From Ophiosphaerella korrae (Eukaryota; Ascomycota; Dothideomycetes; Pleosporales; Phaeosphaeriaceae): a stretch of 64,000 nt of DNA. Made by a program: the position numbers and the translations under genes. The notes beneath the pieces are model-generated. The model was not told where the DNA came from and did not search any database. It was given only the letters and a program-made list of their open reading frames with translations. Positions 1-30,880 of the stretch are shown here, piece by piece; within the stretch, counting starts at the first letter, position 1, and every line of letters begins with the position of its first letter. The stretch covers positions 62,001 through 126,000 of the forward strand of contig JALNQF010000070.1 of the NCBI GenBank assembly GCA_028456385.1, written 5' to 3'.

Positions 1-3000
1 TAGGAACTGGGTACGCTCAGGCTCTGCGGTATCTGCCGTACTAGAGACTACTGATGTAGTAATAGCGATAGAACCAATCTCAGTGTAAAGACAGGAGCCA
101 GTAGAATCGAATGATAACTTAGACAGTATCTTGCCAACTTCGAGGGTCTGCAGGCACGCTCCGCTGCTCGCATCCCACACCTTGACCGTCTCGTCGTACG
201 ACGCGGACGCCAGCCGCGTCAAGTCTGGCGAGAAGGCGACTGACCTGACATAGTACCTATGGCCCTCGAGGGTCTGCAGGCACGCTCCGCTGCTCGCATC
301 CCACACCTTGACCGTCTTGTCGTCCGACGCGGACGCCAACCGCATCGAGTCTGGCGAGAAGGCGACTGACCTGACACTGCCGCTATGGCCCTCGAGGGTC
401 TGCAGGCACGCTCCGCTGCTCGCATCCCACACTTTGACCGTGTTGTTGTCCGACGCGGACGCCAGCCGCGTCGAGTCTGGCGAGAAGGCGACTGAGCTGA
501 CACCGCGGCTATGGCCCTCGAGGGTCTGCAGGCACGCTCCGCTGCTCGCATCCCACACCTTGACCGTCTTGTCGTCTGACGCGGACGCCAGCCGCGTCGA
601 GTCTGGCGAGAAGGCGACTGAGTTAACACCGCCGCTATGGCCCTCGAGGGTCTGTAGGCACGCGCTCCAATTCTCTGCCATAGTCGGCCTGATAGCAATT
701 TCTCCCGGCTCTTCGTGCCGATACAGCTTCCTCACTAAGCTTTTTACTGGGCTAAACAACAGCGCAGATGTATATATCTAGAGAGGGCTTCTCTCAATTG
801 CCACTTTGTGATACATAATAAACCGTCGAGCATCTTGAACTAAGCGCATCAACGCAGTTGTATCCGCTCTTCCCTAGGGCCCGTCAGCATGTACGCCACG
901 TATGAGCATTTTTATCACGGGGAATACCTTGATAAGAGCTTCCATCTTCGCCATCGATATTACTCCTGCTGACACGTTCCTGCAAAGACTGAGAGCTTCT
1001 AGCTAGTAGAGATACTGCGAATTGAGAAATGCATGGACGGCGCCGCTATCCTTAAGACTTTCAATGTTTCTCGAGCTGCTGCTGATAAAGGAGGCGCAGA
1101 GGTGATCGACCTAGTGGATACACGAGTATCGCGTTGCTGCTAGCGAGTCATGGGCTGACACTTGGACCTTGTCAATCGGAAACCCTAGAGCGACCAAACC
1201 GTACATGTCCCGTTTCAATGTAGCAGACATAAGCGTAAGCGATCGAGAGAATATGTCGAAGTGAGTCTTGCTATAGGATGGGAAGACTGTAGCCCTCGCC
1301 TCGTCGCTCAAGTAGTCCTTAGCTGACTGGTGGATGAGGTAGACCTGGTCATCTTGGATGGTGAGGAACGAGCCACACATGCCTATAATCTTTTCAACTT
1401 TACCCGTTACTGCTGCAACCTGTCCAGCTAATCCACACAAACGGCCCATCTCAGCTAGGTAAAGTGGCCGGTATGCGATAGTTGCCGTAGAAAGGAGAAG
1501 CCGGCAGATCTCCGAGTTCCTCTCCGTCAGCTGCTGGATACGATCAACCATGCGATCGTACAGTTGATGCAAGCCTGCTGGCGCTTCTTGCACTACCTGC
1601 AAGGGGTCCCAACACTTGGGCTTCTCGAGCTCCTGCACTACAAGAGCAACCTAAAGAAACGTACTGTTCGCCTTCTGCCTCAGGACGTCTCGCACTTGAG
1701 CCCTTAGGCTGTCGTCTTCGATCGACTTAAGGATAGATAACTTGTGGTTAATGTACGCCTTAATAGCTAGGGACACCTGCTCCGCATTTTGCTTCAGCTC
1801 TAGACTCAGCCTCGCCTTAGTATTGACGCTCCTTAGCTTGTGTTCGATCTGAACCTCGTTTCGACTTGACACCAGCTACTTGACGCGGCTTGATAATGTT
1901 GATGTGTAGATAATCAAGTCTAGGAGCTTCGGCAAGTCGCCAACGCATTCATCTAGAGCGTCGACGACTAGATAGTTTGTCTTTAGATCTAGATTTTGTA
2001 TCATGTTTACAAACATGTCTGAGAGCGCAACCTAAGCATTAGCGCCTTCGAAACTAGATTGGCCTGCCTGATCATACTTCTTCCGCAGATGTAAGACCAA
2101 CGACGGCTGCTGGCTGACTAGCGAGTAGATCAAGCCGCGTAGCACGGCAGTGGCATTGTTAATGCGCGAGTCCGTACCCTGACAGAAGAAGAAGGAGAGA
2201 GGACCGCACGATACTTTCTTCAGTTCGTTGATGATGCCGCAAAGAAGCATCGTCTTGCCCTTGCCAGGGTCACCTTTGATCCACAGCAGCCGTGCTTGTG
2301 GGTCACCGTGCCATCGCTGGAAGCTGGGGTTGTTCAGCACCTAGCGGTACGAGCCTTCTAGCAGGCCTCCCTTTGTGTCCTCGATGCGCTTCTTGTCTTC
2401 GTGAGGGTTGGTAAGGTGCAAGTCCTGGAGACACTTGCTCAGCTTGTCAACCTCGTCCATGAGTCGCTTGAACGCTCCACCCGCCCCTTTGCCATAGAAC
2501 GGAGACACGTCGACGCTGAAAATGCTAGTAAGGCAGTACGCTCTATCTTCCTCAAGTTTAGTCTGCCGGTGTTCGATCCAAGACAATCGCTCGTTAACGG
2601 TGAATTGTGACAGCGGCGCTCCACGAAGCGCTGATTCCGGGATGCCTGTAATTTCGTGGATCTGTTGTTGGAGCGAGCTCTTGTCGCCAAGTCGCCCCCG
2701 TTCCCGAGAGAAGAACTCCACCGATCTCGGGGCAAGAAGTTCTTGGAGTGTCCAGCCCCGAGTGAACCATCTACTTTCCCGAAAAGCTGTCTCCCAAGTG
2801 AAATGAAAATGCTCGCTGCCCGTTGTTCTCTCAGCGGCTGAGACATCGGATAGAAATACATAACAGCGACTTGCGTTGCTGTACCAGCGGAACATAGACT
2901 TAATAGCGTGCGACAGTTCAGCCTTATTCGTCTTCTTGATGCAGCAAGTATCGATCCAGAAATAGTGCAGGCCGTCTTGCCTTGCCTGCTCTGCACAGAA

Positions 3001-3180
3001 CTGGATTTTCTTGTAGCCGAGCTTGTCCTTGCCTACGCCACTTGTCATGTCCTCAAAGGTGACCTCCTCTGTATCCGCTCCCTAGGTGTGAGAGAGTATC
3101 GCGTAGGGCGGGAGTGCGTCTCCGACAGCCAAGTCGGTGAGACTGACCTCGCCTTTAACGTTGCATTACAAGAGCCGCAT
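1..3180 (-). pseudogene. HET-NACHT-WD40 NLR (HNWD type), frame open but with ten internal stops; 3' end off the window
   Basis: This would be a fungal STAND/NLR protein of the heterokaryon-incompatibility class. One minus-strand frame from an ATG at 3180 runs to the window edge. A HET domain comes first (IDTCC, GWTLQELLAP), then a NACHT domain with P-loop GDPGKGKT (about 2255-2280) and a Walker-B-like VVDALDE, a helical linker, and four WD40 repeats. There are no frameshifts. The stops are TAA near 3166 and TAG at 3082, 2341, 2032, 1876, 1651, 1111, 1013, 874 and 778. Several TAGs sit where the family has a conserved Trp, for example in SHT-W-G of the HET domain and just before the NACHT domain. 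TGG to TAG is what RIP at CpA on the opposite strand gives. Other Trp codons and the WD repeats are untouched. The simplest reading is a RIP-inactivated gene; UAG-to-UGG RNA editing is the alternative. Confidence 0.85.
157..660 (-). repeat. Four near-identical 126-bp WD40 repeats
   Basis: Four in-frame 42-codon units (660-535, 534-409, 408-283, 282-157) each start CLQTLEGH and end KVWDASSGA. They differ mainly right after the GH dipeptide (SGGVN, SRGVS, SGSVR, RYYVR) and in the turn before TVKVW (DDK, DNN, YDE). High identity with changes confined to a few surface positions is typical of HNWD-family repeats that evolve by shuffling. A diverged C-terminal stretch follows at 156-1. Confidence 0.9.
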
Positions 3181-4218
3181 CGTTCCGCATAAAGCTATGA
3201 GAGGCTGGTCGGTCAGTACTAAAGTATGCCTACCAGAGCACGATGTTAGCGAACACAGAAAACGGAATATAGGGCCTTACTAGATAGAGTACTGCATTAA
3301 TAGTGGCACATGGTAGGTCCCTAAGCAACTCACTTTGCTATTCTTCGTTATATCCTGGGGTGTTGTGAAGGTAGCCAGACAGGCTTTGCGAGGGGCAGGT
3401 GCGGCTGAACACGCAGCCTTGCCATGTGTGCAAGGCTAAGGCAGCCATCAGACTTCCGCAGGTTGCATTTGGAGGAAGCGGTAATCTCGGTCGCAATAGG
3501 AGAGCGCTCACCTCAGAAACGATTGTAGCCGACAGATGCGGAAGTGCGCAATGCTAGGAACATAAGATCGTTCGGTGCGGTTAAGCCTCGCCAAAGGTGC
3601 AACAGCGAGTACCAGCCACCCGCGACAGGCTCGCCTTCCTTCCTAGAGAAAAGACCCGGCGCACAGGTAAGGCTAACGCTACAGGGAGTAGCATAGCCAC
3701 AAGATTGTTAGCCACAGGATTGGCTTCTGGATAATCTACGTAAGTTACGCTACAATGATGACATGATTGGGGTTAGCTATTGTAAGCTAGCCAGATTTGG
3801 CGCTCACGTCGGTTAGAAGTACCTGCTAGGATTAGTGGGGTTGCATGAATTTGCGCGCTACAGTGCATAAACACAAGGCTACAGTAACTTGTTGCGAGAT
3901 GCGAGCTCAGGAATGAGTGGGAGATGATCATTGATTGAAGAGCTATCCGAGCTGAGCTACTTATATACACAGTGGAGCAGCGAGCTTACTGCTGCGAGCT
4001 TACCTGAATTGTATGGAGCAGAGCTCTAACTTGCGACACACCCCCCAGGTAAGCTGCGTAGTAGAGCTTTTCAGTAGATCTCGTAGCAGTTATCTAAGCT
4101 TAGTTGGAACTACCTTTACCTGCGATTCTATTTGTTTTAAGCTCGTGCGAGCGCTAAGCACTTGTATACTACGCGTAGTATACTTAGAGTTTTCTAGCCT
4201 CGTTGTAAGGTAGACTTC
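3181..4218. other. Intergenic, no gene recognised
   Basis: This is the upstream side of the NLR gene. Only short frames without recognisable motifs are present, and I see nothing assignable. Confidence 0.5.
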
Positions 4219-4884
4219 TGTCAGATTACGAGCTACTGCCAGAGCGCGATACTAGCTTGCCTCTAACTCAACCACATAACACCGGCTCCGATATTGCCAG
4301 CTGAGACGCGGTGAGCCGCGCCAGCTGTGACGTCGCTAGAACTGACGTTGAGCACCTGAGCGAGCATGTGAGATTCAGATGAGAATCGAGACTGCGCATC
4401 ACCTCAGCTACTGCGCATCATCTCAACCACTACGTATCAACTCAACCACCGCGCATCAACTCAACCACTGCGCATCTCCGCACCAGCGCCAGCTAGAGAA
4501 TCAAGGTCTGGCCCAGTCCAGATATCATCGGCACGATAGCTCATCACGTCATGAACTGACTGCGTAGAGCTGATACACTAGTCAACCACGAAATTCGAGA
4601 TAGCAGCTCTCCCACCACCGAGTTATAACTACAGGGGAAGGGGATATATAGACTGGCAGACAGGGCCGAGAAGTAGAGATCATAGATTTCAATCAGTTAC
4701 TCAAATCAATCAAATCAATCATTCTATTCAATTAAGCTTCACCCAAGTTTACTCAGGTCATACGTGATCAATCTGAAATAAGGCTTTTCTGAAAGCTGCA
4801 GTATCCACCTCCAACAAGGCCCTCACATGGCCGTTACGAAAAAGCCTTTTTATCAACCTGCAATAACCCCCTCAAAATCTGACA
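4219..4884. repeat. Inverted-repeat element, copy 1 (TGTCAGATT ends)
   Basis: The copy begins TGTCAGATTACGAG and its far end, reverse-complemented, begins TGTCAGATTTTGAG. It is nearly the same by eye as 40078-40891 over several hundred bases, apart from the length of an internal 19-bp minisatellite (about five units here, 4389-4475). It has no transposase frame, so it is best called a non-autonomous element. No target duplication is obvious. Confidence 0.75.
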
Positions 4885-5992
4885 CGGGTGCAATTCAACG
4901 AACCCTTGATGCGCATATTTGGTTATCGCAGGGCTTGAACTAGTGTAGGATAGTTGGCTAGAAATTTTCGCTTTTTTTGGGTTTTAGCTATATTCGTTGT
5001 CGATGATCCATGACGCACATCTGTTGCCAACGGACGCGGAGTTGTTCGAACCTTGACGCGGGCCCAACCGAGAAGTATGCACACCTGTGCGCAGCACCTG
5101 CACAGAGCCTTAGGTCCTAGAACGCTCCATTCGGCCAAGCTTGCAAGCACGCGTTGGCACGAAGTGTAAGTCAACGGGAACCCTGCTGATTTTGAATTTT
5201 ACTTTGGTACGAGTCAATCCTTTGCCAGCGCTTTCTGCGACAAGTCGTATGCGGTCGGTATCTCCTTGCCGTTATAAGTGCTGTTTCGAGCTCAGAAGGC
5301 CGTTGATATCTACAATATCAGGCTCTGATTCTCTCCCCAATTTCCACAGTCTGGGATCACACGTGGAAGAAGTGTACCCAGCACACCTAATTAGAGTCTA
5401 CCACAAACTCCGACTCCAAAATTCCAAGACCGCGATTCTTAAATTACAAGTATCTATCTATCCTATTCGTTCAAAGTCATGCGCGACAGATATTACCACC
5501 TTTTCTAGTGTGGGTGCAGGACTTTGCTGAGGGAATCCAGTTGTGGGAAGGGCGACAAGTGCGAAGGGATCAAGAACCATGATGAATTGTATTCATCTGG
5601 ACCTTGTCCCAATTGCGCGACAAGTCAGTGAGTTTTGCCTGTCCTTGAACTGAATGAGGCTTTAAGTAACGGACAGAAGCAAAGTAACCAGCTCCTAAAC
5701 TTATTCGGGGGAAGAAAAAGAAATATGTCACGGTGCTGCTAGACGCGGTGACACCTGCTATTGCTCTCAGCACTGGCCTTCAGCTGAGAGAACCTTTTAA
5801 ATAGGGCCTACTTCCTGCATCGTAGCTCAAGGAGTTACGTCTTGTCATTTAGTCCGCCTGCGTGCCGCTTATCTGTTTTATCAATAATACATCTACTATT
5901 ACCTCTTGCTCTTTATTCTGCAGCCCTTCTGTTCGCCCTCCGCTGCTCAACGCCTGCCTACTAATACCCCCGCCAGCACTTTGACAAGACGT
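4885..5992. other. Intergenic, no gene recognised
   Basis: The longest frames, 5141-5530 (+) and 4923-5174 (-), have no recognisable motif and no ATG-intron context. I see nothing assignable. Confidence 0.45.
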
Positions 5993-6625
5993 ACTCAATG
6001 AACTAGAAACATCCCTTTCGAGCATATATGTCTGTTAGGTCAGCTAAAGGGATATATGCTCAATAGGTTGACATGCCAAGAAGTCTTTTCAAAGCATTCA
6101 TGTCATGCTCCACAGAGTACCTATCGTTGTTTGAATGTGGTGCTCGCTTGTTGGGAGGGATCTAGTCTCCAAGGTAGCTAGCATAACCAAAGTTGATTAA
6201 GGTTACACGACCTTCTTTGTTCTTTATAAGATTACTAGGGGAGAGGTCGTTATGGATAACCCCTTTTTAGTGTATTTGCTTGATAGAGCTAGTAATTTTT
6301 GCAGCGTAGATCTATCCGCTAGCGACTTTAATTTCGAACAGTTCCTCTATATAAAGCCGAAGATGCCTTTATTATCAACAAGAGGCTTAGGGTGTACACG
6401 GACGATAGGACAGCTGTGAGATGCCAAGTAACAAAGAATAGAAAACTCGTCACGAATTAGGCGTCTTCGGCGATCGTCTAAGCCAACTTTCAAAATAGGA
6501 AATACATCCTCCTTGTTGTTCAGCGTTCTAATATAAGAGTCGGCTCCACACCTTAAGACATAAGACTTTGCCCAAAGCTCTTCAACTTCCCGGCGATGTA
6601 TTATAGGAGTTACGGAAGCATGCAC
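5993..6625 (-). pseudogene. Protein-kinase-like gene relic
   Basis: A first segment (6625-6347) has a kinase N-lobe-like stretch ending GIFGF. A one-base shift leads into a second frame with the catalytic loop HNDLSPSN (HxDxxxxN type) and, where DFG is expected, NFG. Stops interrupt it at positions compatible with Trp or Gln codons (SG-stop-IYAA, IH-stop-KGV, GD-stop-IPP). The asparagine in place of the DFG aspartate is a G-to-A change. Frameshift, stops and lost metal-binding residue together make it a dead gene. It resembles the many short fungal kinase-like genes of unknown role. Confidence 0.65.
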
Positions 6626-17793: not shown

Positions 17794-18078
17794 ATGGCGC
17801 ACACAGCCCGAGATCGTAACTTGAACGCCACGCAAGATTGGACACCAGTCAGCCTACCTTTTCTGAAACCGCCCGACCAGCTCCCCTGTCCGCTTCCCGA
17901 TGAGAGAGAAATTGCGCAAGGGACAATTCTCTGCGGAGATGCATCCAATCACTGCCTTGTTACTGTCGGCGAAGACTTTGTTGTCAAATATGGTAGTCAC
18001 ATATCTGAAGTTGAAGGACAGAATCTGCTTTTCCTTGAGCGGTACATGGGCGCCTGTTTGACTGTACTAAAACTTTAC
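17794..18078 (+). pseudogene. Phosphotransferase-like kinase gene, 5' part (interrupted)
   Basis: From an ATG at 17794 the frame shows the start of an aminoglycoside-phosphotransferase/choline-kinase-like fold: TILC, then VGEDFVVKYG (the ATP-anchoring Lys region) and EGQNLLFLERYMG. It breaks off at VLKLY, whose last codon TAC lies in a TTAC tetranucleotide (18075-18078). The continuation (AMWRM...) is found in phase 11.6 kb away at 29688. So this is the front third of one kinase gene split by the mobile element 18079-29683. Confidence 0.8.
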
Positions 18079-18599
18079 TAGAGTAACTGTATGTCCGGGG
18101 ACTTTTGACTCCTTTTTTGGAGGTCTTCTGTCGTCGCTTTTGGGGTCACTTGCACCCAAAATGCCAAGCCCAACCCCTGCAACATCGTCAGCTTTTATTG
18201 GCCAAGCTCCCGCACCGCCCCATACTGTCTCGTTTCATCCTTCTGGATTCTAAAATTCACAACAACTGAACGAGCCCTAAAATAGACCCATATCCATCCT
18301 GTCGATATATTTGTCGACGCTTCCTCCGCCATGCCCACCTCGCTGGAATATCGCCTTGTCTACACCCAGAGAAACCTGACGCGCCTGTTCGCGCCCTCCA
18401 TAAACCTGCCGTCCTTGCTCGCACCCCATCAAACTATACAGCTCCCCCTTCCCGCTCTCATTTGATGCGGGCTCCTATTACATTTAGCAGCCCGTTCTAT
18501 GTGGTCTGTCGGTCTATCCTATTGATCTGTTATCGACATTACCCTGGTAGCTGTCAAGCGCCTCTCCACCTTCCTCCTGGCCCGCCGGTATACGTGTAA

Positions 18600-18830
18600 C
18601 CGTCTACAATTAAGGAAGCGTATAGATACACGCCTGCTCAACGGCGCAGACCAACTAAATTAAGATGCCGGACTATTCAGCGACAGAAACCACAACCTAA
18701 ACCTAAATTTTTAGCCAAGCATTATCAAAAACTCCGCGAAGATCTTAGAAAGATAGGGATAGTGAAGAATAACTATTCACCGTCAACAATGAATAACATA
18801 AATAAGATCTCAGATAGATAGATAAGGTAA
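18600..18830 (+). pseudogene. Possible DUF3435-type tyrosine-recombinase (captain) N-terminal relic
   Basis: A plus-strand frame about 0.5 kb inside the left end of the 11.6-kb insertion reads KHYQKLREDLRKIGIV and then KNNYSPSTMNNINKIS before stops at codons where Trp would be expected. The basic stretch followed by an 'NYSPxTxNNI' segment resembles, from memory, the N-terminal DNA-binding part of DUF3435 recombinases. No catalytic R...H-R...Y region is visible; sequence beyond is cut off by the pogo-like element at 18921. Position and orientation fit a captain, but the similarity is short. Any other decayed transposase N-terminus could look alike. Confidence 0.35.
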
Positions 18831-18920
18831 AGAATTTCATGCTTTAGGTTATAGCTCATAATATTAGGTCTCTCTAGATACTGCTAGAATATCAAAGCGG
18901 ACCTAATTTCGCTAATTATA

Positions 18921-20370
18921 ACGTGTTTACAAGCGAGCGGGCCACCCCACCAACTTTTCACGACGCGTCACATACAAACTACTATGGCTCCACCAATTCT
19001 TGTTCAACCAGCCTATAATAAAGCTGATATATTTCTTGCTCTCTCAGCTATTAATAGCGGCCAGATTAATAGCGAGCGACAGGCTGCATTAATATTTAAC
19101 GTCCCTCGAACAACACTCCAAAGGCGACGCGCCGGAATCGCGTCAAAACGCGATTACCAGCCGAAATCGAAAAAGCTTACCAAGCTAGAAGAGGAGGTGA
19201 TTATACAGTATATACTCGACCTAGATTCGCGAGGGTTTGCGCCCTCTCTAGGCGCTGTACGAGATATGGCGGAAAAACTACTCGCTCAGCGCGACGGCGG
19301 CCAGGTTGGCCAATACTGGGTTAGAAACTTTGTCAAGCGAACAGATAGCCTCACGACGCGATTTAATCGACCGTACGATCGACAGCGAGCTCTATGTGAG
19401 GATCCTGAGGCTATACGCGCCTGGTTTGAGCTTGTAGCGCGCGTCAGCTACTCATACTTGATGGCCATGAGAGCCACAACTCGCTCGAATTTCAAGAGAT
19501 CTGTGAGGAGAGTAATATATATACTCTCTGTATGCCGTCACATTCGTCGCACCTCCTACAGCCGCTAGATGTTGGCTGCTTCTCGCCGTTGAAGCGGGCG
19601 TACGGGCGTCAGGTCGAGGGCCTGATACGCGACCACATCAACCATATCACTAAGCTTGAGTTCCTACCAGCGTTCCGCGCCGCCTACGACCAGTCAATTA
19701 CAAAGGATAATATCCGCGCAAGCTTTCGAGGTGCTGGGCTAGTCCCACACAATCCAGAGGTGGTGATATCAAAGCTTGATGTGAAGCTTCGTACGCCGTC
19801 GCCAGCGCTCCTACCAGAGCCTATATGGGAAGCCAAAACACCAAGCAACCAGCGCGAATTAGAGGCTCAATCAATGCTAATTCGCGAGCGGATCCGCGCG
19901 CATAAGAGCTCGTCACCTAGTTCTACTATTGAGAGGCTTGATCAGCTAGAGAGAGGCTCTTCTAGAGCGATGCATCAGATGGCGCTTATGCGCGAGCGAA
20001 TCTTGAGCCTTGAGAGAGCAAATGAGGCCGCAACAGCACGTAAACAGCGCAAAAGGAAGCGAATCCAAAAGAAAGGGACCCTATCAAAGGCAGAGGGAGA
20101 GGATATTATTGCTCAAAAAGCTGTTGAGCAGCAACTAGAGGGAGAAACGCGGCAAGGTAAGGCGCGATCAGGTGCGAGCCGGCAGGCTTCAGCGCGCTGC
20201 ACACGCTGCAGAGAGCCTGGGCACAACTCGCGTACGTGTAAAAAAGTTTCTATAGACTCTACTTAATTTAGTATAGCTATCGTATTAATAGATTTTTTGT
20301 GCGTTGTTGATATATAGGCTGTAAAAGGCTAAGAGAGTTGGTGGGGTGGCCCGCTCGCTTGTAAACACGT
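18921..20370 (+). mobile_element. Fot1/pogo-like DNA transposon, internally deleted
   Basis: A perfect 35-bp inverted repeat (18921-18955 and 20336-20370, starting ACGTGTTTAC) bounds the element, with TA on both sides (18919-18920, 20371-20372), the target duplication of Tc1/mariner/pogo elements. The length of 1450 bp is short for an autonomous copy because the middle of the transposase is missing. Its repeat ends resemble those of the element at 51307-53088, so both belong to one family. Confidence 0.9.
18984..20266 (+). pseudogene. Pogo-type transposase with deleted catalytic core
   Basis: The first frame (from 18984) has the psq-type helix-turn-helix and CENP-B-like DNA-binding segments, up to AWFELVA. 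Near 19437-19445 it jumps directly to LLILDGHESHNS, the second catalytic Asp region of the DDE domain, in another frame, followed by MPSHSSHLLQPLDVGCF, a coiled coil, and a C-terminal zinc knuckle CTRCREPGHNSRTC. Roughly the first half of the DDE domain, including the first catalytic Asp, is gone, and the joint shifts frame. The protein cannot be active. Confidence 0.85.
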
Positions 20371-20372
20371 TA

Positions 20373-20630
20373 TGCATAGCACACTGACGACTCCTGGTAC
20401 CAGCTGAACATGGAGTTGATGGCCTCGGAAAGTTCTGAGTCGCTATTTTTGTTGATGCAGCAGGTGTCGATCCAGATGTATTCGTGGCCTTCTTCCCTGG
20501 CTTTGGCACACGCGCCTCGGACTTTCGAGAAGCCAGTCTTCTTTGTGCTATTGGCGTCACCAACATCATCGAAGATGAATTCAGAACCATCGGGGCCCCA
20601 TGTATGGGAAAGAATAGCCAACAATCTCAT
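20373..20630 (-). pseudogene. HET-domain gene fragment cut by the pogo-like element
   Basis: The frame reads AILSHTWGPDGSEF, WIDTCCINKNSDSELSEAI and FSWYQESSVCYA, the start of a HET domain. It stops exactly at the transposon's TA site (20371-20372). On the far side of the transposon no HET continuation is recognisable. The N-terminus before LSHTW is shortened compared with usual HET proteins. Confidence 0.8.
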
Positions 20631-21586
20631 ATTGCATGAATCCGGTCGAATGAGCCGATGAGGGAGATCGCCAGTACCGTATATGGCTTACTACCTCCTT
20701 TGTGGCTGGCCGAATAAAGGGCAGCCGAGCTGATGAGATAGCAAGGGTGTTAATGATTTAACTGGAGACGCAACAGATGTTTGAGTTTCAGAAGCATAAA
20801 GAGTCAATGGGAAAGAGGGACTGGAGCGCATCGTAAAATTAAGAAAGGTGACGAGAATGGCTTATATGCTTACGTACAGCTGCATGTGACTCTCGTCGGC
20901 CCGGCCATTGGCTGGCTAGACGAAGGGCAAGCGCACAGAGGTACTGTGGCAGCCGCATCTCCGTAGGATACACTATTCAAAGGTCGGTAATATAGACGTC
21001 AAGTCAGCTCAGGGACTCTGAGCATTAAATCTATTCGATGGCCGAAAGGTAGTATAGTTCCCCCGTGACATCGGCCCTAAACCTCTGCATGCCGTTTCTA
21101 ACCATTAAGCCGAACCCACAATACCCTAGCCTAAAATTGGCCTGAACCCTCCCTTGCTACCCCAGTACTCATTTCTAATTCCGGTATCTAAGCTCAATAT
21201 ATATGTCTGCTCTAAATAAAGGGTCCTATATTCTACTAATAAGGTAGTTCATGGTCTGAAGTTCGGCGTCGATTGATAAACGTGTACCTCTCGGATTTGT
21301 TCTGGGGTTTAGGTATTCTGCAACATGACATCACCGCATCAGTTACATCAAAATCGCGGAGCACAAATCACCACCGAAACGTATGCATAATAATGCAAAT
21401 CCATTTCTTTGTCCCATAGTGAGAGAGGGTGAGATCTTGTTTAAAAGATTTCTGGTTGAACACCGTAACCGCGATAGCCCGATTACGAAGATCGTATTTC
21501 CCCACCTACCCCGCATGCTTGAACTTGAGTAACTTCTTGTGTTCTTCGAGTTCAGCAGTACAGAGCAACGTCGCAAGAACAGAGTA
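20631..21586. other. Intergenic, no gene recognised
   Basis: It lies between the HET fragment and the LACC1-like gene, which are divergent. It holds the latter's upstream region. No coding motif was seen. Confidence 0.45.
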
Positions 21587-22588
21587 ATGGCTTCCGAACA
21601 GCTTGAAAATTGGGCGACCTCGCCGATTTATCGTGCTGCGCTTCGCTCCGAATGCGCGAATGCCGCATACACTGGAAAGGGAACGTCACCCATCAATGAT
21701 TTCTTCTCATTCCATAGACCAAACACCGAAGAACAAGGGACTTCCGATAATTTTCGTCAGAACCTGCAGACTCTCGCAAAAAATCTCGAATTCGATCCAT
21801 CCCAACTGACGTGGCCAAACGGGGCCTGGCCCCATTCCGGAGAGGTTATCACGGCCGAATGCTGCAACTGGGTCCGCAACCCGCTCACTAAAGGAATCAT
21901 GCCAACGACTCGAGACAATAAACCATTGGCGTATGACGGCATTGTTACAAAGAGTCCACAGTTTGTGCTTGGCGTGCAAGGTGCCGATTGCCCGTCAATC
22001 TTCCTTTGTGATTCTGAAACGGAGGTCATCGGTCTGCTTCATGCAGGTTGGAAACCTGTTGTCAGGGGAGTCATCCCAAGTGGCATAAGAGCTATGCTCC
22101 AGCTTGGGGCAAGCATGAAGAGCATCGCGGCGTATATCTCTCCTGGAGCAGGTGACTCTTACTGCGAGTTTCGTTGGGACGAACACATGGAACCCGGAGT
22201 TAAAGCTGTCTTCGTGGATGCTGGCCGTGAAGATCTTCTGGAAAACCAGAACATTCGGCATAAAATGACTGAGGAAGAAATGTCAAAATTGGCCCCAACC
22301 CTAACGGAAGAGCGTAGGGCGGGGGCTACCTTACGACTCACACATCTTGCAGTAGAAGAATTAGAAAGTTGTGGTGTGCCTCCTGCTCAAATCGTCGCTA
22401 ACTACGACTCGACGACAGTCGATCGATATCCTCCCGCTAATGCTACCTCCTCCGAATACCGCTACCATTCCTATCGCCGCGAGCATCCAGATCATGGTCT
22501 TGCAATGAGTGTACTCTTCCTCAACTCGGGCAGCCCGTCGAGGGGGCAGTGTCGAAAGAGATGCTCGAGCTTCGAAAACCTTCTATAA
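21587..22588 (+). CDS. LACC1/YfiH-family protein (multicopper-oxidoreductase-like, purine nucleoside enzyme fold)
   Basis: An intronless frame of 333 residues from the ATG at 21587; the upstream extension has only a GTG. Signature motifs are GADC (C135), HAGW (H152), SPGAGDSYCEF (185-195) and a C-terminal YHSYRRE. These are the YfiH/YlmD/LACC1 hallmarks, where Cys and His residues bind zinc. Family members catalyse purine nucleoside phosphorolysis and adenosine deamination; the older 'laccase' label is doubtful. Fungal versions like this one are longer than bacterial ones at the N-terminus. It lies 78 bp from the convergent membrane-protein gene, and both sit inside the 11.6-kb insertion, so they are likely cargo. 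No disabling mutation is seen. Confidence 0.85.
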   Translation: MASEQLENWATSPIYRAALRSECANAAYTGKGTSPINDFFSFHRPNTEEQGTSDNFRQNLQTLAKNLEFDPSQLTWPNGAWPHSGEVITAECCNWVRNPLTKGIMPTTRDNKPLAYDGIVTKSPQFVLGVQGADCPSIFLCDSETEVIGLLHAGWKPVVRGVIPSGIRAMLQLGASMKSIAAYISPGAGDSYCEFRWDEHMEPGVKAVFVDAGREDLLENQNIRHKMTEEEMSKLAPTLTEERRAGATLRLTHLAVEELESCGVPPAQIVANYDSTTVDRYPPANATSSEYRYHSYRREHPDHGLAMSVLFLNSGSPSRGQCRKRCSSFENLL

Positions 22589-22665
22589 TCATCACCCAGA
22601 GCTACCGGCAACAAGTTTTTGGACTACTACCCTCTTTCTCGGTCGTGTTGAAATGTCCAAATGTC

Positions 22666-24258
22666 TTACTCGTCACGTAGGTAGCATACATTTATAGATT
22701 CAATGGTTCCCCCGTCAGCCACCGCTCGATGTCTTCCAGTGTCCGTGGTAGTCAAAAGCACATCTTGGTCCCGCACATTTACCAAGAACTCATACTCCGC
22801 TCCAGCGGCTTGACGCGAGTGGTCCTCCTTGCTCGGGAGGAAAGCATAGGCAGGTCCAAACAGTGCAAGTCCCCACAATCTGCTTGATTTGAAAAAATCG
22901 CGGAACTTTATAGAGCTCACGTCGACTGATCCTTGAGTGAAGCCGATAGAAATCTTGTTCGAGCGTCTTTTTTGAACGTGGGCCATAGCTTGCCCATTGA
23001 TCATGACTTCCTTCAGAAAGAGGAGATTCCTAAACGAAGAGAACATTACACTCATGTCTATAGCGCTACTAAACATCGCGCCGGCACCCAAAGTTAACGA
23101 GGCTAGAAGCGCGAGAGACCCCAGCTGGGTGGTGCTGTCCAGCGTACTGGTAACTGACGTCCAGGCTGAAAATCCAGTGGTGATGGTGATACCGAGCATG
23201 GTCATAACGTTGGTTACGACCTTTTCTAGAGCGGCATTCCCAGCTTCGACTGTACCGTTCGTCTCCCTTGTTTGCCAGTTGTTCAACGTGGTCGCGGCTC
23301 CTTTGTCCTCTTCATCATGGTCTGTTCGTTCTGGCGGGATTGGCACATCTTTCAGCTGGCAACGCTCGACAACGGGAAAAGTGAGGCTTCCAGCAGGTTT
23401 CCCAACTTGCTTAAATACTGGCGCCTGTATACTGTGAAGAGCAGCGTCGAGATGGGTCAGGTCTACAGACGCGAACGCTGCTCTATTCAGCAAGCTCCAG
23501 CTAGCGCCGGCAGCTACTAGTTCGAAAAATGCTTTACAGGTCTTCCCAACATACCAGGCGTGAGCGATAAATCCAGATAGGTAGATTGTGACGACAACTA
23601 AACGAGGATAGCTGTCCGGCCGTTTATCGTTAGTAAAGAACCCGTTGAACAGCAGCGTCGAAATCACCATGGCAAGAATCATCCAGATGCTCACCCACTC
23701 CCATACTGCTAATTGCACTATGCTCTTCGTCAAGGAAGACCCGGTTGTGAGCCACATGGGTGGAGTATGGGTTCTTCTATTCGGAATGTCGACGCATTGC
23801 TGAACTCCTCGGGCCCATCTATCGGGCTCGTCATCTAGCTTTCCCACGTACATCAATCTAATTGCATCTTGAGTGGCTCCAAGGGTGTCCGTTGTTGTTA
23901 CCACAGATGACGTTCTGTCGGGCCAGGCGCGGGACAACAACGCTCCTATGTTGCCCTCTATTGTTGAAAGAGGTAGTTTGCTTGTACTAGCAAGCCGAGT
24001 GCCAGGGCCGATTAGCACGGCGTACGTTGCGGAAACGAGCAGCGCGCAGCAGATAGCAAGAGCCGTATCAACACTTCGGATGCTATTGCGAAATGGTTGC
24101 GGAACGGTTGTATTCGAAGATCCTCCGCTTCCTATTGGAATTGTACCTTGTGATTGTCCTGGCGAGTTTCCAAGAGGGCTGCTTGCGACCGGCCTTGCTA
24201 CTGCAATCCTTAAAGTGTAGAGCGAAAGGGTGAGTATGCTCAATGAACAATGGGACAT
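22666..24258 (-). CDS. Uncharacterised multi-pass membrane protein
   Basis: An intronless 530-residue frame from the ATG at 24258. The N-terminus looks like a signal peptide (SLSILTLSLYTLRIAVARP). Hydrophobic segments follow near residues 65-85, 190-215, 225-245, 255-270, 375-395 and 405-425. A charged loop (PPERTDHDEEDKG) separates two halves. No enzymatic motif is visible. I do not recognise the family; the layout is that of fungal hypothetical membrane proteins. It converges on the LACC1-like gene, suggesting the two travel together as cargo, but no functional link can be shown. Confidence 0.65.
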   Translation of the reverse strand: MSHCSLSILTLSLYTLRIAVARPVASSPLGNSPGQSQGTIPIGSGGSSNTTVPQPFRNSIRSVDTALAICCALLVSATYAVLIGPGTRLASTSKLPLSTIEGNIGALLSRAWPDRTSSVVTTTDTLGATQDAIRLMYVGKLDDEPDRWARGVQQCVDIPNRRTHTPPMWLTTGSSLTKSIVQLAVWEWVSIWMILAMVISTLLFNGFFTNDKRPDSYPRLVVVTIYLSGFIAHAWYVGKTCKAFFELVAAGASWSLLNRAAFASVDLTHLDAALHSIQAPVFKQVGKPAGSLTFPVVERCQLKDVPIPPERTDHDEEDKGAATTLNNWQTRETNGTVEAGNAALEKVVTNVMTMLGITITTGFSAWTSVTSTLDSTTQLGSLALLASLTLGAGAMFSSAIDMSVMFSSFRNLLFLKEVMINGQAMAHVQKRRSNKISIGFTQGSVDVSSIKFRDFFKSSRLWGLALFGPAYAFLPSKEDHSRQAAGAEYEFLVNVRDQDVLLTTTDTGRHRAVADGGTIESINVCYLRDE

Positions 24259-25414
24259 TTTGTAGTCGCTATTGAGTGGATTTGCGCTTTTGACTGAGCC
24301 CGGTGGACACGCGTATGCGTGTACAAGGCTGATAGCGTATGACCCGAGACACGCAACAGCAAATGCCTAGCGGGGCTGGGCGATCTTTTCACACTGCAAA
24401 AAAAATTGTGGAGGACCCTTTTGCAGCCGTAGCAAGTGTGGCTTTGACGAGTTCCGCCTCGATCCATGACTCTTATATGCCGGCGCTCATGTCTGTCCTG
24501 GATTCGACTCGGCCTCAATACGCTTAAATCCAGAACGCCCTTTGCTATGCCACTAAGGTTCTTCAGCCATTCAGACTCTTGATTTCGATCACATGGGCTG
24601 AATATTGACCGAAATTTGAGGCCATAATTTTAAGTTAGGGTGACACAACGGAAGAAGACAACAAGCTTTTCAGCTTGCCTGAGAATAAGATGCGGTGAGT
24701 CCCAGCTCTATAGATCATTCGCTGATGGTGTCTGGCGCTCGCAAGGTTGAGAGACACTAACACGCACCTGACGCCATTAACACGCCGGAATAGGAAATAT
24801 CTCACTGCATGCATAGTCCTTCACTCAACACGCATTTATTTTTCAGAGCCTCGACTCAACCTCCCATGGTAGACATTGATGGAGTGAAGTGCCCTCGGCA
24901 TAGCGTCGCACCCTCGCTGATTAAGATGCAATTAAGCCGTCGATTGGGCGCGCAGCTTAGAGTTGGCAATAGGCAGTCCAATCTGAAGATTGCTAATAAG
25001 GTGGACGAGCAATCTGGGAGGGCTCGGATTTTTCGAATTGAATTGACACAGTAAAACCTCGATGGAGCGATATAATCCGGGCATGCAAATCCTATCGTTG
25101 TATTGAAATATCTTACCTCAGAAGCTCAGGCCTTCTGCGTCACGTGAGGCACTAAATAGGCCCGTTCCGGAGGAACGACTCCGCAGGAGGCCTGAGCGCG
25201 ATGCCGAGATTTGGGAGAAGTGTGCGGGGGGAAAATCACGAAACTCACCAACTTTAAGAACTCATAACTTTAGTACAACAACATACTTTTATACTATTCA
25301 ACGTGGTAAAATATTCCAAAACATCTGAAAAATTCGCCCCTGGAAGCAGTAAAAAATTGAAGTACGTTTATTTAAGGTACCGCGTAAAATGGTTAATTGA
25401 TATAACGCTACTAT

Positions 25415-25545
25415 TGAAACACGTTAGGAACACATTAGGAACATGTTGCTAACATGTTTTCATACAACAGTTGTGGCCATGATTGGCGGTTGTAAAACAC
25501 GTTTGAAACATGTTTAAAACATGTTTTAAACGTGCCTAAAGTTTT
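25415..25545. repeat. Cluster of ACATGT/ACACGT-centred palindromic repeats
   Basis: Repeated AACATGTT, ACACGTT and related motifs alternate on both strands (for example AACATGTTGCTAACATGTT), making a self-complementary block in AT-rich sequence. It could be a decayed inverted repeat. Confidence 0.5.
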
Positions 25546-25600
25546 GTTCATTACTTTTATATTATATTAACGTTGTATAATAATAAAAATGGGCCGAAAA

Positions 25601-25653
25601 GATTTAAATTAAAATTATATAGGTTACCTAAGGCTTTAATTTTAATTTAAATC
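25601..25653. repeat. Perfect 17-bp inverted repeat with 19-bp spacer
   Basis: GATTTAAATTAAAATTA (25601-25617) pairs exactly with 25637-25653. No T-tract or gene lies beside it, so I do not call it a terminator. Confidence 0.7.
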
Positions 25654-25819
25654 GTAAGACGTTAAGAAATAGAGCAAACTACTTAAGAGACAGTTAGATA
25701 AATAGCCACGAGCGCTTCCGCGGGGATGAGGGGGGGTTTAAGGCAGTCACATTATCGAATGCCTTGCTGTTTATCTGGGTAATCGGCACGGATTTTGCGT
25801 GTTTTGCCGCCCTAACATG

Positions 25820-25843
25820 CTGCTGCTGCTGCTGCTGCTGCTG
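25820..25843. repeat. (CTG)8 microsatellite
   Basis: Eight CTG units; on the minus strand they code eight glutamines in a short decayed frame. Confidence 0.85.
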
Positions 25844-27029
25844 AGGAGTCTGCTTTTGTATTGTATTTTTTATACGCTGTCGTTGCCAGGGAGCCTGCTA
25901 TTTTCCACGACATTTGCGAGGCATTGGTGTCGTGTGAGGGGGGACTGAAGGCAGGAGGACTGAGGCACTAAGGAAGCGGCGAAGAGGTATATTGAGAGAG
26001 GAGACGAATCCTTGAGGAGGCTCAGGACTCGATGGGCGGAACTATATAAGGTCCATCACGTGTCCGTGAACGGGCCGTCTATGAACCAAGGGCCTCCAGC
26101 AGGATGGGCGTGACACTTATATAGTAGAGATCTCCTTTACTCTTTACTGCCATTTTTACCATCCCATAACAGTACTATAAGGGATTGGGACTTGGCCTTA
26201 GGTATAAATTATGCGCAAACGACGTTAGGTTACAGCATATCCGTTTTACTTATCACACATCCCTTAAGAGATGAGTCGTATAATAAAGTAGTTAATAGTC
26301 GATCCCGGCACTTAATGGGCTGCGCACGCTCAGGGCATCCGTTGATTCCTATTCCAACTACTAATAGCATCTGAACCAGTACACATACGGACTAGGAGAT
26401 AGTCAGGGGGAGCAAATCCAACAATTTTACTAAAGCAGACTAAAGGGATCTATTACGGCCATGCCGAAGGAGCATAAGAATAAGATCCATAGACCCATTA
26501 CTCTTACACTATAGATTCGTACCTAGCACGGAACATGCCCGTCTAGAGGAACCGGCATTAAAGATGCTTACCCATCTTATGGAGGAAGTCAGTAGAGTAA
26601 TTACCGGTATAGTATCTACCAGGGCGCAGCAAGGTGGAGGCGGTGGAGACAATAGCGAGGCACTTCCTTGATTAGATACGTCGCTCGTCAGAGGGCATAG
26701 CCTTCCTCATGTCGCATGAATTTTGCTCCATCCTGCTACAGAGTTGACACTACGCACTCCCACTACAGCGGTCCTCGACGCTTAACTGAAGGGTTGCGCC
26801 TCCACTAACTAAGGGGTAGTCCAATGCGTCGCTCCAGTTTCTGTCCTCTTTTTCCATGTAAATTAGATTAGGCCGTTGCTCGAACTCAATCTTGTTTAGG
26901 GGGGGATGCTAGCCGCAGAATGTAACGTGTTAGACCGAATTATAAGGCGTAGCTGGTAGGACAACGGCCGGATTTCGGACCTAGTAACAGCGGTGAGGAT
27001 GAATCCATCTTCTCTCGTTTCTCTCCATA

Positions 27030-28940
27030 CTCGCGCCACGCACCCCCTCGCTTCGCTCTTGAGTGCTCCCGGGCTCAATGTACCCAACAAGCTCAGTATA
27101 CCTAATGCCAAGGCCCGTAACAAATAGGTGCGGGCACCACCTACGACGCACGGAATTAACCTATCTAATTATCTAGGAAGGTACTCTTAGGTCTGAATTA
27201 TTATTACATGTATAGATTTAGTGCGGGTAGTAATCGATTATTTTAGCAATCAGGCTCTTAGGCCTTTGGCTCGCCCCCAGCAGCCGCCCTATCCTTCTTC
27301 CTCGCATCTTCCTCCTGTTCGGCCATCCGAAGCCTCGCATCATGTACGTAGATGGTACCACCCTTCTGTATATGCCGTCGATCGCCTTTTTGACGCTTTT
27401 TACGAGCGTTCGTGGCAACGTTAACCTGCACAAGCTCCTCACTAGCTTTCTCTCCATGGAGCGCTGCAGCAACGGCACCCTTTTGAAACTTAGAGAAGCG
27501 GCCAGGCAGTATTCCCCATTGACCTGTCTCAGGATCAACACCATACATGTGCTTCCTCGCGAACTCATCTAATTGCCAAGCCTTGCAGGGTGTTGGTGGT
27601 GAGAGAACTACCTCTGGGGGTGGAGGAGGTAGGGGCGTTTGAGGCCGATCGACAGTCTTTAACTTTGATAGCACAATACTAGGATCGTATGGCCAGAGGC
27701 CTGCCTGTTTAAAGGCTGATTGGATAGTGCTTGGCTTGTAAGCCTTCTTACGTACATCTTGAATTACGTGTAGAAACTCGACCTTATTGAAGTTATCGCA
27801 GCCAAGCCGAGTCTCTATTTCAACGCGCTTCTTGTGGTAGTACTTGAATGGCTGAAAGACTGCAACGTCGAGCGGCTGTAGTATATGCGTCGTATGAGAT
27901 GGTAGAAGGAAAGGCCATATCTTTCGACCCCAGCAGAAGTGGATGAAGTCGTAGGTGAACCTTGAGGGGTGGCCATTAAATATTAACATTCTCCACCTAT
28001 TACGTCATCTCCCAAGCTTTGTATACTTGTCAAAGTGGTAGATATAGTCCATACCGAGTCGATCATTTATATAACCAGAGCTTGACACCCCAAGTAGAAG
28101 GTTAGGGTCAAGGTCAAGCTCTTTAGAAACATGCTGGTGCATGATCACCGCCCCACGTATTATACAAAGAGGTGGGATACTCTGTCCAATCGCGTTAACA
28201 GCTTCTACGAGAGTAACAAGTTCTCGCTCTGTATCAGATGGAGACTCTGCAGCGCGATAGACCTCTAGAGTAACGACCTCTTGATTGCCACCAACACCAA
28301 TTCGCGTCCCGCACTCGTTCATGTTCCATATATCCTCTGGGCCTAGCCCCAGCTTATCTACCACGTACTTGAACTCGTAGAAGTAATCCTCAATTACGTG
28401 TCGTTCCTGAGAGATGACCCTCGAGAGTTCTTGAGGCTTTTGTTTGACGCGTCGAACGCGTGGGTTGGCTGCTTGGTAGCGCTTGAAGAAGTCGCGGCCG
28501 AGAGGCTTGAGGACAGTACCAGGTGCGGATGAGAGAATTCGAATACGTTCTGCAGCAGCGCGCCACATCTCTACAAGAGGAGCTGCCCCAGTTCGTCGAG
28601 GCGTTTAATATAGAGCTCAAGAGCTTTTAGTTGAGCCGAAGTTAGCCTTTGGTTGGTCTTCTGTCGCGTTGACTTGCTGCTGGGGTTCTTGGAGCGTCGC
28701 AACAGCCGCCGGTAATCCACGTCGAACATCTTCGCCACGTCCTTGATGACGTAGGAATTTTTTGTGGACATCCATCGTAGGGCCAGCACAATCTGCGCCT
28801 CTTCTTTGAGATAATTAGACATTGTTCTGGGGTGTAGATGGTAGAATTAAGTAGGATCTTGGCATTAGGTACACTGAGCTTGGTGGGTACATTGAGCCCG
28901 GGAGCACCCAAGAGCGAAGCGAGGGGGTGCGTGGCGCGAG
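27030..28940 (-). mobile_element. Pogo-like DNA transposon with about 85-bp inverted repeats
   Basis: The ends 27030-27114 and 28859-28940 are long, slightly diverged inverted repeats starting CTCGCGCCACGC, flanked by TA (27028-27029 and 28941-28942). The total is 1911 bp. The transposase lies on the minus strand. The repeats are unrelated to those of the 18.9-kb and 51.3-kb elements, so this is a second family, nested in the 11.6-kb insertion. Confidence 0.85.
27258..28822 (-). pseudogene. Pogo-type transposase, inactivated
   Basis: The frames in order are 28822-28571 (helix-turn-helix, YRRLLRRSKNP), 28568-28005 (after a one-base shift) and, past an in-frame TGA (GR-stop-RN), 27989-27258 with LPSHTTHILQPLDVAVF and a Lys-rich C-terminus. 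Where the family has catalytic aspartates, the sequence shows NMNECG (normally NMDE) and IFNGHPS (normally DGH). Both are Asp-to-Asn, as G-to-A changes give. It is dead by frameshift, nonsense and loss of two active-site residues. Confidence 0.8.
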
Positions 28941-28942
28941 TA

Positions 28943-29683
28943 GTCCACATGCTGCTCCACCTGGAGCCATGATTCTCCACTCGCTAGGAGATGAGGCATT
29001 TTTATGATTGGCGCAGGCATATAGGTCCAGGGGCAGGGTAGGCTCAGCTCTGGTCCGGTCCGGTTGCGGCGGTGGCGGTCGGAGCAGGAAAGAAGAAAGA
29101 TGGGGAATCAGCGTCATGGCCGGATTGGGTTACCGTCACCGGAAGATCATAACAGACACTAGAGAGGTGTAAAGGTGGGATCGTAGATAGCGAAAGCATA
29201 TGCGAAGGGCCCTGGAAAAGCGCACTGGAAAAGAACCCGAACGAAGTAGAGGGAGGATACTTTAAAAATGAGAGTCGAAAGCCGTCTGAATCAAACCTAA
29301 CTGAAGCTGGCGGGATCGTCAGGTCCACACTAAGTCATACCAACAGCATCACAGCCTGCCGCGGTAAAAAAGAACGATAAGGCGGAAACTGGGAAGGCAG
29401 CGCAGCATGTTGGCTGGTCGGAGAGCGAGTTTTGATTGGTGAACGGAGATGAGATGGGGGAGCTGGCAGGTGAGGCGTAGAAAAGGCGTGGGCCGCTTGG
29501 CAGCAGAGGTGCCGGGGTCGAGTTAGAGAATTAAGGGAAAGAGACGAGGAGGAAGCCTGGCGACGGAAGAGCGAGCAATTTATAGACGTCAAAAGCAGCG
29601 GGTTGATGGGGCGAGGAGCGATTCCAGATAGGGATAAGCGCAGGGACTACACTAAACCCAAAGAGGGAGTCCCTGGACAGACA
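28943..29683. other. Right end of the 11.6-kb insertion, no gene recognised
   Basis: Two minus-strand frames (29592-29335 and 29328-29044) are Ser/Pro-rich and lack motifs. They are probably not genes. The stretch ends in the inverted repeat at 29668-29683. Confidence 0.4.
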
Positions 29684-30265
29684 TTACGCCATGTGGCGCA
29701 TGACATCTACGGGACATATCTGCCTTGTCATGCAACGACTGCCTAGAGAAAGTCTTGAGACACTCTGACCCCAGCTTACGAAAGAGGAGAAATCGGCTGT
29801 CTGCGCAAGGCTAAAGAAAGCTTTTAACTTTCTGCGACAGCTTCCCTCTCCTGGCTTCTACGGTGGCATCGGCAACACTCCACTTCCCCACCACTTTTTC
29901 TGGGATTCGGCCAAAAGTCCAGCAATTTGCGGACCTTTCAGTTCAGAGGCTGAACTTAATATTGGAATTGTTCGAAAACTGAGACAGCAGTCTAAAGAGA
30001 ACGGAGGATACATGGACCAAAAGATAGAGTTCTATGGAAGGCACCTGAATACTGCGTTAAGTGGGCATCATGCCGTCTTTCGCATTCGGATCTACAACGA
30101 AAGAACATCCTGGTACATCGGCACGCAAGGACTATTATTAGTGTAGCCATCGTAGACTGGGACGCAGGGTGGTGCCCGGGCTACTGGGAATACTGTCTTG
30201 AGTTCGCTACAGCATTATGGGTAGACGACTGGCCGGAGCGACTAGAAGACATAATCGCCCCTTAG
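29684..30265 (+). pseudogene. Phosphotransferase-like kinase gene, 3' part
   Basis: Starting in phase after TTAC, the sequence reads AMWRM, HICLVMQRLP, a TGA where the family has Trp (ETL-stop-PQL), then FNFLRQLPSPGFYGG. A one-base loss near 30077 shifts the frame before the catalytic loop HSDLQRKNIL and the metal-binding VAIVDWD, followed by YWEYC. The end is a TAG at 30263. This is the C-lobe matching the front part at 17794-18078. The gene is therefore broken by insertion, nonsense and frameshift; which came first cannot be told. Confidence 0.8.
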
Positions 30266-30880
30266 CCGCGTGAGGCTGCGGTCTTCAGGATGCTGTACCA
30301 GGAATTGTACTTTTAGAGAATCTAAGGTTTCTTTAACCACAGCCCCAGCTATCTTTTCTAATTAAGCCTAGTTCAAGCACATGTAGGGCAGGACAACTAA
30401 CTTGCTTCTAGCATGTGACCCGAACGTGACGCATAACTAGCCACGATTAGTCATCAGCCTGGACCGTTGCGTGGCGCTGTTGCATGGCGTCATTGCTGAG
30501 TCAGCCAAAGCGCCCAGCATCTAAACCGCGAGGAGTCTCGCGGCCATGTGTCACAGCGATCAAAGCAACGATTTAGGGATAGTATGACCAAATTGATTGA
30601 GCTATTGGAGATTGCGAAAGATAGGCCTGGCAAAGCTCTTGAGGATGCAAAAGATCAGGAAACGTTATGGAAATTAAAGCAAAAGGTTGAAATTACCCTG
30701 TCATATGAGATGGCGCGAATCGGTCGGATACTCTTAAACATGAACTGCTATCAGAGCAAAATTCAAATGGGGTTGATGGCCTTGCAACTGGAAGAGAATC
30801 GTCACGGCATCCAGCAGGCTGTTGGTGTGGGACGTTTGACGAAGCTGGCGAAAAAGGATTACCCACGTCACAATAACGGA
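30266..30880. other. Intergenic with one doubtful plus-strand frame
   Basis: A frame from an ATG at 30583 to 30916 (about 110 residues, Lys/Glu-rich, helical, KALEDAKDQETLWKLKQKVE) overlaps the 3' end of the Myb-like gene on the other strand. It has no motif I know. It may be a gene fragment. Confidence 0.3.

Follow-up and report, generated by a model that had tools for sequence, protein, structure and literature searches.

An 11.6-kb insert splits a kinase gene at TTAC

The window analyzed here is a 64,000-nucleotide stretch of Ophiosphaerella korrae DNA (assembly GCA_028456385.1, contig JALNQF010000070.1, positions 62,001 to 126,000, forward strand). It contains an APH-like kinase gene whose front and rear parts are separated by an insert that carries two intact genes and two nested transposons, and that is likely to be the remnant of a Starship-like element lacking its captain gene (features in Table 1). 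The genome is a 63-Mb assembly of 974 contigs, in which the window's contig is labelled C668.

A first-pass annotation, made from the letters of the window, had proposed that the kinase halves, ∼11.6 kb apart, were once adjacent and that both breakpoints lie at TTAC. Both proposals were confirmed. When the joined halves were used as the query, five relatives with 67–82% identity were recovered, and in all four that span the joint (P0001–P0004) the region [K/T]LYAMW is read without a gap; the fifth, P0005, begins behind the joint. The rear reading frame restarts inside the second TTAC (TAC GCC ATG TGG, encoding YAMW), so that KLY and YAMW meet at an exact codon. The PF01636 domain is present in P0001, and the named relatives are from Byssothecium circinans and Trematosphaeria pertusa, which we take to be Pleosporales; no kinase relative was confirmed in IMG/VR. 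The evidence for an empty site consists of these four uninterrupted protein relatives, all of them from other fungi. Premature stops and a frameshift in the rear portion make the split kinase a pseudogene, and the insertion is therefore probably not recent.

The insert between the two TTAC copies spans positions 18079–29683 (11,605 bp), plus one TTAC. One TTAC is found on each side, and a single TTAC is implied in the uninterrupted kinase. The longer context is TTTACT on the left and ATTAC on the right, with TTAC common to both.

The ends of the insert are asymmetric and recur singly in the genome

Imperfect inverted repeats of 16 bp had been placed at the two ends of the insert. They are present and agree at 14 of 16 positions; when the terminal 60 bases were shuffled 2000 times, with any offset from 0 to 24 allowed, this level was reached twice. 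Beyond the 16 bp no likeness between the left and right ends rose above noise. The right repeat touches TTAC, as had been supposed, but the left one lies nine bases inside it (spacer TAGAGTAAC, against 0 bases on the right). The nine bases are part of the element, because they recur beside TTAC on another contig, C208; in the kinase relatives there is no space for them.

Terminus scans covered the whole genome at ≤3 mismatches, with the reversed sequence as control. The left terminus was found at two places, here and on C208, and the right terminus at two, here and on C366, with no match in the reversed controls. On C208 the spacer position holds TAGAGCAAC and adjoins TTAC, reading TTACTAGAGCAACTTTGTATCCGGAGAC; the C366 right end reads GTCCCTGGGCAGAGATTAC. 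A left end on C318, with a decayed spacer, adjoins ATAC. With the left 846 bases as the query five matches were obtained, and with the right 756 bases six, the insert itself included in each case; the others were all partial, at 77–80% and 76–85% identity, respectively.

The insert carries two intact genes that look like cargo

The first-pass annotation described a precise insertion with two intact genes and nested elements, and this description stands. The intact genes are convergent. The product of cargo gene 1 exceeds the PF02578 cut-off (22.9 bits) and is YfiH/LACC1-like by its solved relatives, with scores below the NCBIfam equivalog cut-offs. Its residues H83, C135 and H152 are the same in all 13 sequences aligned and presumably serve as metal ligands. 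For the product of cargo gene 2, 83 relatives were found among 7998 candidates scored. No Pfam family was detected in it or in three of four relatives, the fourth having one match far below the cut-off, and its model (pLDDT 74.5) had no solved fold at E ≤ 0.001 among the 171 PDB matches listed (E up to 10).

A genome search with either gene gave a single match, the copy in the insert. Among 61 relatives of cargo gene 1, 17 lie on a contig equally long as one with a cargo gene 2 relative; restricted to contigs of ≥3.5 kb, the same pairing holds for 17 of 31, which is indirect evidence that the two are neighbours. Consecutive locus tags for the pair were seen in Exophiala spinifera, Emydomyces testavorans, Rhinocladiella mackenziei and Monosporascus sp. 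GIB2. The two genes look like cargo, because no other copy of either was found in the genome and because their relatives lie side by side in several distant fungi; the pair is thus an old neighbourhood carried by the element. Among the cargo-gene matches that carry an organism name, a minority, none was seen to be from the Pleosporales, and horizontal transfer of the pair is no more than a possibility.

Nested transposons and a truncated HET gene lie inside the insert

The two pogo-like transposons are each flanked by TA, and the insert without them measures ∼8.2 kb. The second is missing from the partial copy on C29. Fungal pogo/Fot1-like transposons are thus present as nested elements, which leave the outer TTAC ends unexplained. 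A HET-domain gene is cut at the far edge of pogo 1. Two HET proteins match the remnant over 75–82 residues only, and the remainder of the domain was not found within the insert, except for one match at E 0.76. Because the HET gene is cut at this edge, a deletion beside pogo 1 is likely, and it may have taken the captain as well.

Captain elements of the same genome can start at TTACTA

The captain domain PF11917 (DUF3435) gave at least 45 matches on at least 28 contigs of the genome. On two of them, C261 and C364, homology between the captain-bearing loci begins at TTACTA[C/T]CTTAAACAATC; upstream of it lies AT-rich DNA with no evident homology. The motif was found 1.2–1.6 kb upstream of the matched captain part, on the captain's strand, on 8 of 28 captain contigs (C261, C364, C298, C882, C241, C138, C402 and C656). 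Its letters were seen for six of the eight (all except C402 and C656), with the variants ATAC on C138 and TTACTT on C241. For the C5 captain, related to that of C261, the motif was not seen in the stretch examined. From the start shared by C261 and C364 and from the motif upstream of captains, we conclude that captain elements of this genome can start at TTACTA, like the insert.

Two further stretches upstream of captains, TTACTAGAGATAGCTGTA near position 281 of locus L020 (C5) and TTACTAGCGTTGAGGCAGCTGTA at L031 (C912), have first bases that resemble the insert's left end. One captain family has at least seven copies that are 90–95% alike (C656, C402, C241, C138, C298, C882 and C95; loci L024, L027, L028, L029, L044, L034 and L045) and contains many TAG and TAA codons, a pattern like that left by repeat-induced point mutation.

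A captain gene was not found inside the insert

The longest frames (≤4 each) of 12 captain loci were compared by tblastn with the insert and the window, and no convincing captain was obtained; a six-frame reading beside the right end likewise revealed none. One 13-residue stretch resembles a captain (E 6.5e-4, slightly better than the best values of 0.001–0.099 from ten shuffled inserts). Its flanks do not extend the resemblance, and no Pfam match was found in its frame. When wider frames from 20 captain loci were compared with positions 20681–21600, the next-best match, on the other strand, scored nearly as well. The stretch is possibly the last trace of a captain, or chance, and it was not used as evidence.

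Fuzzy matching of the insert termini at 30 captain loci gave 14 mismatches against 15–17 in shuffles, and 8 against 10–11 (three shuffles each); the places were judged to lie inside or behind captains, and these matches were dropped. Also dropped, as chance, was TTACTAGAGAAAC near the C16 captain, which lies downstream and in another frame.

The insert is best read as a captain-less Starship-like remnant

If the two ends of the insert are joined as a circle, the joint reads AGTCCCTGGACAGACA-TTAC-TAGA-GTAAC-TGTATGTCCGGGGACT, a near-palindrome whose arms take in TTAC and GTAA(C). We infer from this layout a tyrosine-recombinase site, rather than that of a cut-and-paste transposon. In the proposed pathway, both ends would have been joined as a circle, with the order arm, TTAC, TAGA, GTAA and inverted arm, by a captain that belonged to the element and was later lost, or by one supplied by another element. 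Strand exchange between the TTAC of the circle and that of the kinase gene would then leave one TTAC on each side, with the element's TAGAGTAAC on the left only. Such an exchange would account for the observed asymmetry of the ends, which a transposon with a DDE transposase would not give. Later, the two pogo-like transposons would have landed inside the insert; the deletion beside pogo 1 would have removed most of the HET gene, and perhaps the captain; and the kinase would have decayed while both cargo genes kept open frames.

Known Starships provide the closest comparison. Direct repeats and asymmetric terminal inverted repeats are features of Starships, and in the Phoenix family the direct repeats are TTTAC, TTTACT and ATTAC (PMC12257634). 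The insert has repeats of this type, with TTTACT on the left, ATTAC on the right and TTAC shared. The target of Janus, of the Phoenix family, is A(N3)TTACTA(N2)A(N15)CT, and for Hephaestus the canonical target is TTAC(N7)A (PMC12153272). Phoenix-family elements (Horizon, Limos, Thetis; Janus) share with the insert TTAC-type repeats or a TTACTA target, asymmetric terminal inverted repeats and cargo genes. In contrast, they measure tens to hundreds of kb and have a captain. Assignment to the family would require a captain that falls in the Phoenix clade. The Hephaestus family shares TTAC with the insert, and the insert's own left end is TTAC(N7)A, as on C208, C261 and C364.

Captain loss has been reported (PMC12134995; PMC11623301), and Icarus of Pyrenophora tritici-repentis is without a captain (PMC9594970). 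Such derelict elements resemble the insert in their end repeats, their insertion site and the missing captain. Icarus, however, is 294 kb in length, whereas the insert is 11.6 kb, with a boundary that the broken gene fixes to the base. In Sanctuary the captain lies ∼350 bp from the 5′ edge (PMC12506042).

These data suggest that the insert is probably the captain-less remnant of a Starship-like (tyrosine-recombinase) element. The eroded Starship that the first-pass annotation had considered is therefore retained as the best reading, carried by the TTAC repeats, the asymmetric terminal inverted repeats and the resident TTACTA captains. Formal membership is not claimed, because no captain gene was detected in the insert, which also falls short of the published sizes; what is proposed is a captain-less remnant that worked like a Starship.

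Several observations weigh against this reading. (i) The insert, at 11.6 kb, is smaller than the ∼20–700 kb given for Starships (PMC12153272). (ii) PF11917 was found nowhere on C668, nor on any contig with an end copy, and beyond TTACTA the ends of the insert show no resemblance to the ends of the captain loci. (iii) On the target side the sequence is TTAC(N7)G in the kinase (TTACGCCATGTG) and TTAC(N7)T at C366 (TTACCGAAAGAT), and not the TTAC(N7)A of Hephaestus. (iv) Background in the motif scan is high (60 matches compared with 25 in the reversed control), and the motif contigs are not independent, since six of the eight, with C261 and C364 as the exceptions, belong to one family that is 90–95% alike. 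(v) Of the other copies with the same repeats that had been envisaged, single termini exist (left on C208, right on C366), but the genome yielded no complete second copy carrying both of them.

Some of these points would also fit a non-autonomous family that never had its own captain and consists of recombination ends with variable contents, moved in trans by TTAC-specific captains; we regard this as unlikely, though the most serious of the alternatives, and it is mainly in this form that the undescribed element type of the first-pass annotation survives. It would agree with the lack of a captain match on every contig with an end copy, with the ∼8.2 kb left without the pogo elements, with resident captain elements that begin at TTACTA, and with the insides of the end copies, which differ (by eye, HET, kinase, nucleoside-phosphorylase-like or NLR-like pieces). 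However, the other copies are all incomplete, and what now lies inside them may have come to adjoin the ends later; a deletion is suggested by the HET gene that breaks off beside pogo 1; and captain loss from a larger element accounts for the same facts. Were such a family real, which we doubt, it would be a small captain-free shuttle with a Starship-type site that resident TTAC-specific captains move in trans and that ferries single cassettes; the one seen here would pair a Cu-oxidase_4 enzyme with a new family of membrane proteins.

It is improbable that the insert is a cut-and-paste (DDE) transposon that duplicated 4 bp (TTAC) on insertion and ends in the 16-bp inverted repeats. Such an origin would explain the four-base duplication, the inverted ends and a right repeat that starts with TGT and touches TTAC. 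A repeat touching the duplication on both sides was not observed, however: nine bases, derived from the element, part the left repeat from TTAC, and this offset is repeated on C208 and C318. Moreover, among the 10 pieces scanned, Pfam transposase domains occur only in the two nested pogo-like elements, which have their own ends. An assembly join or a rearrangement that chanced on TTAC is very improbable, because each terminus with its TTAC recurs at an independent site; the exact codon at which the kinase halves meet argues against it as well, even in an assembly of 974 contigs with no reads to check the junctions.

On the reading as a captain-less remnant, what makes the finding interesting is its precisely known borders, the model of the recombination site and the pair of cargo genes. 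Such a relic would escape a Starship search that starts from captains, and the broken host gene still delimits it to the base. The ends suggest a testable recombination-site model, with inverted arms around TTAC-N4-GTAA. The two-gene cassette, present in distant fungi, may travel as cargo.

Table 1. Features of the split kinase locus (positions in the window)
Feature	Position	Strand	Basis
Kinase front, APH-like pseudogene, ends KLY at CTTTAC	17794..18078	+	Gapless alignment with P0001–P0004
Left TTAC direct repeat	18075..18078	+	Sequence
Left end region, partly akin to C208, C318, C590 and C523	18079..18910	+	Sequence search
Spacer TAGAGTAAC between TTAC and left inverted repeat, element-derived	18079..18087	+	Absent from kinase relatives; recurs on C208, decayed on C318
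Left 16-bp inverted repeat TGTATGTCCGGGGACT	18088..18103	+	Sequence
Pogo-like transposon 1, TA on both sides, broken transposase (HTH_Tnp_Tc5, DDE_1)	18921..20370	+	Pfam, sequence
HET-domain gene, first part, cut at edge of pogo 1	20373..20687	-	PF06985, 44 bits
Captain-like 13-residue stretch, putative trace	21380..21418	+	10/13 identical to C912 captain locus
Cargo gene 1, Cu-oxidase_4 (YfiH/LACC1-type), 333 aa	21587..22588	+	PF02578, 102 bits
Cargo gene 2, helical membrane protein, 530 aa	22666..24258	-	Relatives, model
Pogo-like transposon 2, TA on both sides	27030..28940	-	Pfam, sequence
Right end region, partly akin to C366, C590, C523, C127 and C29	28943..29687	+	Sequence search
Right 16-bp inverted repeat, TGTCTGTCCAGGGACT on the minus strand	29668..29683	-	Sequence
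Right TTAC direct repeat	29684..29687	+	Sequence; also final bases of C366 right end
Kinase rear, pseudogene, starts YAMW, premature stops and frameshift	29685..30316	+	Sequence, relatives

Other observations

A second HET-like gene fragment lies in the window outside the insert, at positions 2341–3081 on the minus strand. On C523 (L058) a short coding-like stretch with several repeats (∼3000–4000, minus strand) lies beside the right-end fragment, and on C29 (L060) the right-end fragment is bordered by a receptor gene at 3472–6323 with, by eye, the order HET, NB-ARC-like and TPR-like.

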